In this document: positions 33,879 to 35,905 of the stretch, piece by piece | Layout of the letters: every line of letters begins with the position of its first letter | Position numbering within the stretch: position 1 is the stretch's first letter | Assembly: GCA_012035135.1 (NCBI GenBank) | Contig: JAAUPI010000010.1 | Coordinates: 1-45,889 of the forward strand | Source of the DNA: Microcoleus sp. CSU_2_2 | GTDB lineage: Bacteria; Cyanobacteriota; Cyanobacteriia; Cyanobacteriales; Microcoleaceae | Direction: 5' to 3' | Length of the DNA: 45,889 bases | Notes under the pieces: generated by a model | Told to the model about the DNA's origin: nothing | The model's database searches: none | Seen by the model: the letters and a program-made list of their open reading frames with translations, nothing else | Program-made: the position numbers and the translations under genes

Positions 33879-35120
33879 TTAAGTCGTATACTCCGCATTA
33901 ATTTTCACGTAATCGTAACTCAAATCGCACCCCCAAGCTTTAGCAAAACCGTTACCATTCCCAACACTTACCTGAATTAAAACCGTATCCGCTTTCAAAT
34001 ATTCGCCCGCAGCCGCCGTTTTCATATAATTACTCGCAGCAGATTTATCGAACTCCTTAGGTTGCCCATTTTCCATCATCAAAAAATCTCCCAGTTGAAT
34101 GCGCAAATTCTCCTGTTCAAATTGCACGCCCGCACGCCCCGCAGCGGCCGCAATTCTGCCCCAATTCGGATCTCGTCCAAAAATAGCAGCTTTTACTAAA
34201 GAAGAACCGACTATTGTTTTGGCAATTTTACTAGCAGAAACTTCGTCGGGTGCGCCGCTAACTTGGACTTCAAGCAAACAAGTTGCACCTTCGCCATCGC
34301 GGGCGATCGCCTTCGCTAAATGAACGCAAACTTCTGTCAGCATCGCCTCTAATTTTTCTGCATCCGCACCCATTTCTGTAATTGCCGGCGTGCGAGATTG
34401 ACCGTTTGCTAAAGCAATTAGCGAATCGTTGGTACTGGTATCTCCGTCAACAGTAATTTGATTGAAACTCCTGTCGGCCGCCCGACTCAGCATTTCTTGC
34501 CACAAATGCGACGACACTGCTGCATCGCAAGTTACAAATGCCAGCATTGTTGCCATATTCGGGTGAATCATTCCCGAACCTTTACAAATGCCACCGATAC
34601 GAACGGGGCGATCGCCAAATACGGTTTCCAGGGCGATCGTTTTCGGCACTAAATCTGTGGTGCAAATAGCCTTAGCAGCAGCATCGGAACCATCTTGGGT
34701 AGCTTTTGCGATTAATTGGGGAATTGCTGCCTTCAGCGCTGCCATTTTAATTCTTTGTCCGATTACTCCAGTGGAAGCTAACAGAATTGATTCTGGGGGA
34801 ACATTAAGCTCTTGTCCCAATAACTGAGCGCATTCGATCGCATCTGCCCAACCTTGTTCGCCCGTCGCGGCATTTGCTTGTCCTGCATTGCACAAAATTG
34901 CTTTGGCGCTGGGTTTTGCTTGCAGTCCCTGACGGCAGTAGTCCACGCAAGCTGCCCGGACAGTAGAGGTGGTGAAAACTCCGGCGGCGATCGCCTCTAC
35001 CTCTGACAAAATTAAAGCTAAATCCGGCGCGCCTGAAGGCTTCAAACCCGCTGTAATTCCCGATGCTCGATATCCTTTGGGTGCTGTAACTCCGCCACTA
35101 ATTACTTGCCAGTCTGTCAT
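33879..35120 (-). CDS. argJ: Bifunctional glutamate N-acetyltransferase / ornithine acetyltransferase
   Basis: ArgJ recycles the acetyl group from N-acetylornithine to glutamate in the cyclic arginine pathway and often also makes N-acetylglutamate from acetyl-CoA. The precursor cleaves itself before a threonine; here the site is in CKGSGMIHPNMATMLAFV, with Thr of MATML as the new N-terminus of the beta chain. Other signatures: FTTSTVRAACVDYCR, NAGQANAATGEQGW, ITVDGDTSTNDS and the end CDLSYDYVKINAEYTT. Length 413 is standard. The gene stands alone and converges with the Uma2 gene. Arginine synthesis is a main nitrogen sink, so its neighbourhood to gifA is suggestive, but no shared promoter is seen. 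Confidence 0.95.
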   Translation of the reverse strand: MTDWQVISGGVTAPKGYRASGITAGLKPSGAPDLALILSEVEAIAAGVFTTSTVRAACVDYCRQGLQAKPSAKAILCNAGQANAATGEQGWADAIECAQLLGQELNVPPESILLASTGVIGQRIKMAALKAAIPQLIAKATQDGSDAAAKAICTTDLVPKTIALETVFGDRPVRIGGICKGSGMIHPNMATMLAFVTCDAAVSSHLWQEMLSRAADRSFNQITVDGDTSTNDSLIALANGQSRTPAITEMGADAEKLEAMLTEVCVHLAKAIARDGEGATCLLEVQVSGAPDEVSASKIAKTIVGSSLVKAAIFGRDPNWGRIAAAAGRAGVQFEQENLRIQLGDFLMMENGQPKEFDKSAASNYMKTAAAGEYLKADTVLIQVSVGNGNGFAKAWGCDLSYDYVKINAEYTT

Positions 35121-35202: not shown

Positions 35203-35245
35203 CAATTACCAATTACCAATTACCAATTACCAATTACCAATTACC
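35203..35245 (+). repeat. Heptameric short tandem repeat (CAATTAC)n
   Basis: Six perfect head-to-tail copies of the heptamer CAATTAC lie in the spacer upstream of argJ. This is the inverse of the GTAATTG heptamer run at 26939. Confidence 0.9.
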
Positions 35246-35384
35246 GGGCAATAAAATTAATCGCGACTTCTTCTGGGGAACTCTAGCTGGAGAAGAAGTC
35301 GCGACAGTTTGGTAACTGGCATTATTGAATTTTGGCTGGCATTCAACAAACTCGATTCAACAGTCTCGCCGTTGAAATAAGGAG

Positions 35385-35525
35385 TTATTGACGATCGACA
35401 CTCGCTTGAAAACCAGCATCTAAACCAACTTCAGCAGCCGCGCGGCTCAGCAGAGATTGCTGGCGATTTTTAACGAGGTGTTGGTGGCGCATCATCAGGC
35501 TGCGAGCTTGTGCTTGGGTAGACAT
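35385..35525 (-). CDS. gifA: Glutamine synthetase inactivating factor IF7-like, shortened copy
   Basis: This 46-residue protein is a second IF7-type factor. It shares MSTQAQARSLMMRH, HLVKNRQQSLLSRAA and AEVG with the 64-residue copy just upstream and keeps arginines at positions 8, 21 and 28, which are reported to be needed for binding glutamine synthetase. Compared with its sister it lacks about 14 residues (the HYWGHIQGKPQPS part) but keeps a similar end (FQASVDR). It starts 60 nt after the sister's stop, with GGAGAA 8 nt before its ATG and no visible promoter of its own, so it is likely co-transcribed. The shortened tail may change stability or affinity (inference). Confidence 0.75.
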   Translation of the reverse strand: MSTQAQARSLMMRHQHLVKNRQQSLLSRAAAEVGLDAGFQASVDRQ

Positions 35526-35585
35526 GACTGGTTTCTCCAAATGTATGTAATCAGTTTGCGGGCAATTGGGGAAATTGAGCTTGCC

Positions 35586-35780
35586 TTAACTCATGGTGGC
35601 GTTGCTGCGATCGTAACTGGCTTGCAGGCTGGGCTGTGGCTTGCCTTGAATGTGACCCCAGTAGTGTGTGTCTTCCATTCCAACTTCGGTAGCGGTGCGG
35701 TTGAGCATGGATTGCTGCCGATTTTTCACCAAGTGGTGGTGGCGCATCATCAGGGAGCGGGCTTGATTTTCGGTAGACAT
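35586..35780 (-). CDS. gifA: Glutamine synthetase inactivating factor IF7
   Basis: IF7 is a small, basic, disordered protein that binds cyanobacterial type I glutamine synthetase and switches it off when ammonium is plentiful. The 64-residue product begins MSTENQARSLMMRHHHLVKN and ends QASYDRSNATMS. Arg8, Arg21 and Arg28 fall exactly where the essential arginines of IF7 are reported. GGAGG lies 8 nt before the ATG. An NtcA-type box overlapping the -35 region (35849-35862) fits the known NtcA repression of gif genes under nitrogen shortage. A shortened copy follows directly. The family call rests on recalled motifs, not a database search. Confidence 0.82.
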   Translation of the reverse strand: MSTENQARSLMMRHHHLVKNRQQSMLNRTATEVGMEDTHYWGHIQGKPQPSLQASYDRSNATMS

Positions 35781-35830
35781 ATTCGGTTCCTCCGTATCTT
35801 TGTGTCACGCTTGTTTTTTCTGACATTTTT

Positions 35831-35836
35831 ACTATA
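35831..35836 (-). promoter_or_regulatory. Probable -10 box of the gifA promoter
   Basis: TATAGT on the minus strand lies about 50 nt upstream of the gifA start codon and 12 nt downstream of the NtcA-type box, a workable sigma-70 -10 element. Confidence 0.5.
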
Positions 35837-35848
35837 ACAGATATTTCT

Positions 35849-35862
35849 GTATCTAAAGTTAC
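35849..35862 (-). promoter_or_regulatory. NtcA-type box upstream of gifA
   Basis: GTAACTTTAGATAC on the minus strand is a perfect GTA-N8-TAC. Its edge lies 12 nt from the -10 box, so it covers the -35 region. In activated NtcA promoters the box sits about 22 nt from the -10; the closer position here is what a repressed promoter would show, as known for gif genes. Confidence 0.65.
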
Positions 35863-35905
35863 CAAATCGAATTTGTAATAAAACTTTACATTAACCGGAC
35901 TGACA

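Follow-up and report, generated by a model that had tools for sequence, protein, structure and literature searches.

A short IF7-like gene behind gifA in Microcoleus, a candidate second glutamine synthetase inactivating factor

Introduction

The inactivating factors (IFs) of cyanobacterial glutamine synthetase (GS) are described as proteins that bind GS, require no further signal and are repressed by NtcA (PMC6316151, PMC7760959). Synechocystis IF7 no longer interacts with GS once any one of three arginines is replaced, and several possible mechanisms for the shut-off of GS by IF7 are given in the same source (PMC6316151). A second GS inhibitor of Synechocystis, IF17 (gifB), carries an IF7-like helix with conserved arginines (PMC6316151), and GS inactivation is reported to be more efficient in strains with two factors (PMC6316151, PMC7760959). 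Tandem gifA genes are already published: Limnospira indica PCC 8005 has four potential gifA genes in a row, found by BLASTp and bearing consecutive locus numbers (PMC8400943); the passages of that paper on these genes mention neither the lengths of single copies nor truncation. Among the matches listed in a search of the PMC literature, titles and abstract openings included no paper about a short form of IF7.

Here we describe such a form from Microcoleus sp. CSU_2_2. Like IF7/IF7A (gifA) of Synechocystis PCC 6803 and Nostoc PCC 7120, the protein has an N-terminal helix with Arg8, Arg21 and Arg28, and its ORF stands directly behind a gifA gene that, as in other IF7A genes, has an NtcA-type box over the -35 region. 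Unlike IF7A, which has about 65 residues, it has 46, lacks the C-terminal YWxxIQGKPxxxFxxxYDRSxASxS module and belongs to a group of short proteins in which His15 is usually replaced. It also differs from IF17, which carries a long DUF4278-related stretch at its N-terminus, and from the IF17-like proteins of loci L068 and L069, which keep the C-terminal module.

Results

Organization of the gifA locus

The window, the whole 45,889-nucleotide stretch of DNA analyzed, carries on its minus strand, in this order, an NtcA-type box, a -10-like hexamer, gifA, a spacer, the short ORF, a hairpin and argJ (Table 1). A preliminary description, made from the letters of the window, had proposed two IF7-like ORFs of 64 and 46 residues lying 60 nt apart on one strand, with Arg8, Arg21 and Arg28 in both; translation and the IF7A profile (NCBIfam NF052599, GS_inact_IF7A), which both ORFs match, confirm the pair, and the translations contain all three arginines. 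A lack of IF7 homology in a profile search, which would have refuted the description, was not observed. In the short protein the N-terminal IF7 helix is present and the IQGKP module is absent.

Table 1. Features of the gifA locus, with positions in the window
Feature	Position	Strand	Evidence or description
NtcA-type box GTAACTTTAGATAC upstream of gifA	35849..35862	-	GTA-N8-TAC, over the -35 region
-10-like hexamer TATAGT	35831..35836	-	12 nt behind the box
gifA, encoding IF7A (64 aa)	35586..35780 (including stop)	-	NF052599, 123.1 bits over 1-66 of 66
Spacer between gifA and the short gene, 60 nt	35526..35585	-	Contains ribosome-binding-like TTTGGAGAAA; no NtcA-type box
Short gif paralogue, 46 aa	35385..35525 (including stop)	-	NF052599, 68.7 bits over 1-38 of 66
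Long hairpin behind the short gene and ahead of argJ, a putative transcription end	35260..35305	-	15-pair stem, 14-base arms
argJ, downstream neighbor (context)	33879..35120	-	TIGR00120, 546.8 bits

The hairpin has a fold z-score of -7.6, and none of 200 shuffled sequences was equally stable; the terminator scan of the window did not call it. By eye, a hairpin-like inverted repeat is present in nine of ten aligned genus loci and missing in G025. Short repeats of the CAATTAC type run between argJ and the hairpin (35203-35246). No Rfam family reached its gathering score in the window.

Homology and origin of the short gene

The short protein (E = 3.9e-19) falls just below the curated cut-off of the profile (70 bits), and the short gene likewise scores under this naming cut-off in all 19 genus genomes with an intact copy. 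A Pfam search gave no match for either the 64-aa or the 46-aa protein; the DUF4278-related part ahead of the IF helix is absent from both, with no Pfam match and a helix starting at residue 3. A sequence search of the PDB gave no IF7 structure, and for the short protein one weak match of no weight. Over the N-terminal part, gifA and the short gene share 27 of 36 residues and 84 of 108 bases. Behind it, short-gene codons 39-45 (FQASVDR) agree with full-length codons 52-58 (LQASYDR) at 15 of 21 bases, a match attained by 2 of 5000 shuffled tails. Because the tail codons match gifA, the short ORF is a copy of gifA that has lost a net 13 residues internally and is clipped at its end, FQASVDR being the only remnant of the C-terminal IQGKP/YDRS module. 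The internal deletion of about 14 residues proposed earlier comes close to this figure; the last 5 residues are gone as well.

Beyond this pair, a protein search of the source genome (an assembly of 357 contigs, 84% complete) found no other IF7 protein, and NF052599 gave two further, very weak matches. By eye, the two DUF4278 proteins found in this genome have no IF helix. The genome also has a GS gene with an open frame of 474 aa, and another gene, GS-like, whose frame spans 730 aa. Among mobile elements, phage records yielded no IF7 homologue and plasmid records one, on a 277-kb Acaryochloris plasmid (NZ_CP071719.1:232625-232822; 50% identity, annotated as a DUF4278 protein).

The shared promoter region

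The GTA-N8-TAC pattern occurs six times in the window against 4.25 expected by shuffling, so that a single box is not significant alone. The same pattern lies 82-92 nt ahead of the ATG in all 27 gifA loci of the genus, and the box in the window is credible because of this constant placement. None of the 19 genus spacers between gifA and an intact short gene contains an NtcA-type box, and all 19 have GGAG ahead of the short-gene ATG. The box over the -35 region of a shared promoter region, as first described, is thus borne out, and co-expression of the short protein, claimed at the same time, is likely. The sigma-70 consensus scan did not call the TATAGT hexamer; TATA(G/T)T is found at the -10-like place in other genus gifA promoters as well, among those listed.

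A TGTAAA...TTACA-like element with two mismatches lies 11 nt upstream of the NtcA-type box (35874-35890) and resembles the HLR1 site of RpaB. Allowing at most one mismatch, 11 of the 27 Microcoleus promoters and 15 of 59 gif promoters from elsewhere have such an element, as against 2 of 860 mononucleotide shuffles, a hint that gifA may respond to light or redox state. Examples of HLR1 sites for RpaB are given in PMC6331805.

Distribution within the genus

To place the pair among relatives, 59 of them were searched with NF052599. The genus, taken as Microcoleus sensu lato, comprises 29 genomes (G000-G028). Full-length gifA is present in 27 of these 29 (G027 has no match, G014 weak matches only), and, among the matches listed, nothing in the genus besides gifA and the short gene exceeds 28 bits. 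Synteny, one of the checks suggested for the pair, holds in that an intact short ORF stands 56-66 nt behind gifA in 19 of the 27 loci, encoding 46 residues in 18 of them and 47 in one. Microcoleus vaginatus HSN003 (L081) is one strain with the pair. The short gene is broken in G028 and absent in G006, G009, G010, G017, G022, G023 and G025. In a ten-locus alignment, G010 and G017 retain the spacer with GGAG and a tail remnant, and the short gene was therefore lost there; in the other five genomes the gap starts right behind the gifA stop, which fits loss or original absence alike. The same alignment puts the short-gene tail of G026 out of frame. Since seven of the genus genomes with gifA do without the short gene and one more has a broken copy, it is dispensable. 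An argJ-like start, named by likeness to the window protein, follows downstream of gifA in all 27 loci.

Selection on the short gene

Pairwise dN/dS values and codon models were obtained for 18 short genes and the full genes of the same genomes. For residues 1-36 of the short gene, dN/dS has a median of 0.16 (0.24 pooled), close to the 0.16 (0.19 pooled) of the same residues in the full gene; residues 37-46 of the short gene give 0.60 (0.71 pooled) and residues 37-64 of the full gene 0.10 (0.14 pooled). Codon models on a tree, with omegas read from a coarse likelihood grid and the likelihood at omega 1 taken as the best of three kappas, put omega at about 0.2-0.3 over residues 1-36 of the short gene, where the free fit reaches lnL -488.3 and omega 1 gives -500.6 (a doubled difference of about 25); over the same residues of the full gene omega is about 0.15. 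For the short tail omega is 0.7-1 and neutrality is not rejected, while D44 and R45 are identical in 18 of 18 sequences. Residues 1-36 of the short gene are under purifying selection and its tail is near-neutral. On the codon models and conservation, we reject the reading of the short gene as a pseudogene; judged by these sequence comparisons, it is conserved and selected in the genus and no private accident of one strain.

Truncated IF7 outside the genus

Short forms also occur beyond Microcoleus, standing in arrays behind gifA, ahead of it or by themselves. Kamptonema UHCC 0994 and strain USR001 have one full and two short proteins of 45 aa, Oscillatoriaceae M33_DOE_052 one full and three of 52 aa, G054 one full and one of 47 aa, and G177 one full and four others, one of them of 58 aa. 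In Hydrococcus Prado102 and an assembly labelled SU_1_2, a short gene of 41-42 aa lies in front of the full gene. Separate loci with their own NtcA-type box encode two 40-aa short proteins in G040 and one of 41 aa in G129. Single short IF7 proteins are found in L127, L142 and L148, and more distant ones in L061, L064, L066, L144 and L146. In two metagenome assemblies, G425 (L127) and G427 (L148), in which the absence of full gifA may be an assembly gap, NF052599 matches no protein besides the short one at E 0.001, although both assemblies contain GS; this is an indication that IF7A is not needed for the short form to act. Outside the genus, 19 loci have an IF-like ORF of 38-58 aa with a single motif, including L089 (a frameshifted full gene) and L122 (57 aa, IQGKP kept). 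In 17 of them GTA-N8-TAC precedes the first gif ORF by at most 300 nt, in most cases by 54-103 nt. No NtcA-type box lies in this range at L064 or L066.

Full-length tandem arrays exist too, with two or three gifA copies in the family members G030, G031, G033 and G034; in G032 the second tandem copy (L042:1498-1692) has an in-frame stop near residue 24. L061 (1001-1338) encodes two near-identical 44-aa IF-like proteins side by side, both with Arg8, Arg21 and Arg28, one of which scores 29.5 bits; an NtcA-type box lies 54 nt upstream of this pair. The proteins of L065 (992-1249) and L067 (977-1219), of 80-85 aa, combine a YRG-type N-terminus with an IF helix and have no IQGKP module. With a DUF4278 match for the N-terminus of L065 and that of L067 judged by eye, they show the same truncation within the IF17-like family.

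A further set of proteins, of 75-91 aa, has two IF-like helices in one frame (L052-L060, L062 and L063; for example L052:1001-1249), with only one motif read in L058 and L059. Arg8 and Arg28 are kept in these proteins and Arg21 is replaced in 10 of the 11 loci, the exception being L062; nine of the 11 have no NtcA-type box within 300 nt. These double-helix proteins may have left GS for another target. Two assemblies labelled Tatlockia and Gracilibacteria (L085, L131) carry cyanobacterial gifA and are probably misbinned or mislabelled.

Number of origins

The number of origins was approached with a tree of 156 N-terminal sequences over 36 columns (35 short and 121 full rows). Proteins entered it if they had 40-75 aa, an ATG start, one motif, a score of at least 48 and the anchor motif near residue 7, identical proteins being taken once; L061, L064, L066, L144 and L146 were left out. 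Proteins of 57-58 aa count as full, although one of them, L158_2157, is part of a short array. The number of switches between the two forms, which may be gains or losses, is 10 on the best tree, 9-10 in bootstraps and at least 6 on starred branches, support being rough with 36 columns and a bootstrap that had not settled. Two rows are doubtful in themselves: L089, counted among the 35 short rows here and in the arginine count below, is a full-length gene broken by a frameshift, with a stop in the glnA of the same assembly too, and the full row L107_2764 is one residue short and misaligned by the anchor. Leaving both out gives 9 changes. The short rows of the genus form one group (97/71). A single origin of all short copies is disfavored (one-clade AU test, p = 0.032), the number of origins being uncertain with 36 columns, and the short copy seems from this tree to have arisen more than once elsewhere.

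Conserved residues and predicted structure

Every one of the 35 short rows has Arg8, Arg21 and Arg28, as do all full rows but one (120 of 121), the misaligned L107_2764. His15, counted without L089 and L107_2764, is found in 111 of 120 full against 3 of 34 short rows. By rows, convergence at position 15 is strong; these are counts of related rows, however, and a test on independent pairs had one supported pair, too few for significance. By eye, position 15 is changed in six of eight short groups (Microcoleus-Kamptonema-G054, M33_DOE_052, Hydrococcus-SU_1_2, G040, G129 and L127), and His15 is kept in L142, in L148 and, within Microcoleus, in G003. On an ideal helix, computed angles place His15 on the side of Arg8, with Arg21 and Arg28 on another side. 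Because His15 is changed in 31 of the 34 short rows, the short helix is not simply the same as the IF7 helix. AlphaFold2 predicts a helix over residues 3-33 of the short protein, at a pLDDT of about 90 with lower confidence behind it, and over residues 3-32 of IF7A, again at about 90, with a C-terminal part of low confidence. In 29 full-length IF7 sequences I44, Q45, G46, Y56 and R58 are invariant, and such strong conservation implies that the C-terminal module does something. A protein without this module may bind GS without inactivating it.

Discussion

We consider the 46-aa gene to encode, with a probability of roughly 60%, a second GS inactivating factor that is made together with IF7A and in which IF7 has been pared down to the GS-binding helix. 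NtcA repression, GS binding and inactivation are properties that we infer here from published work on Synechocystis and Anabaena. Under plentiful ammonium, 2-oxoglutarate would fall and NtcA would leave the box over the -35 region, allowing the gifA promoter to give one transcript for both IF7A and the short factor; both would then dock on GS via the helix that bears Arg8, Arg21 and Arg28, making GS less active. We would guess that the short factor, having no YWxxIQGKPxxxFxxxYDRS module, binds more weakly or turns over faster, and that it could provide a graded, quickly reversible part of GS inhibition. Among the matches listed the genus has no clear IF17, so its two factors may be IF7A and the short protein.

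The main rival to this reading makes the short protein an antagonist, which would occupy the IF7 site on GS without inactivating the enzyme and so limit IF7A, co-expression capping the inhibition. A helix that keeps its arginines and has shed the conserved C-terminal module is what such a competitor would look like, and the widespread change of His15 points the same way; it is also seen where the full-length partner retains this histidine (Microcoleus apart from G003, Kamptonema, G054, M33_DOE_052, Hydrococcus, G040 and G129). However, the short genes without a detectable full partner in G425 and G427, and the separate short loci with their own NtcA-type box in G040 and G129, fit an inhibitor better, and a competitor made simultaneously from IF7A's own message would be wasteful. 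We therefore regard antagonism as unlikely, while giving it more weight than either of two further explanations. That the short protein has left GS for another partner, for example another enzyme of nitrogen or arginine metabolism, would account for the changed position 15 and tail and for argJ as the constant downstream neighbor in the genus. This is improbable: the three GS-contact arginines are in every short row and the constraint on the helix is close to that of IF7A, while the hairpin separates the short gene from argJ, which follows gifA even where the short gene is missing.

Nor do we give much credence to a decaying duplicate or an untranslated relic in the 3' region of gifA. The seven gifA-bearing genomes of the genus without the gene, the eighth in which it is broken, and a tail that drifts near neutrally and is out of frame in G026 would suit decay, but the open frame, start codon and GGAG are kept in 19 genomes, omega stays low over residues 1-36, and truncated copies occur in other lineages. 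From these sequence patterns, the short copy is probably not a broken gene but a functional regulator that has been overlooked.

Beyond the reading of the short copy as a second inactivating factor in this genus, a wider proposal is more tentative, and we hold it with the odds somewhat against it: cyanobacteria may repeatedly have cut IF7 down to its 36-residue GS-binding helix and changed His15, giving a distinct class that works differently (weaker, faster or competing), that could serve as second factor instead of IF17 in Microcoleus and related cyanobacteria, and that might do the whole job in some genomes. Whichever way they act, natural helix-only proteins separate the two parts of IF7, and a direct test of whether the helix suffices is thus possible. 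In Microcoleus, a main organism of soil crusts, the short proteins suggest a second layer of control over the entry of nitrogen.
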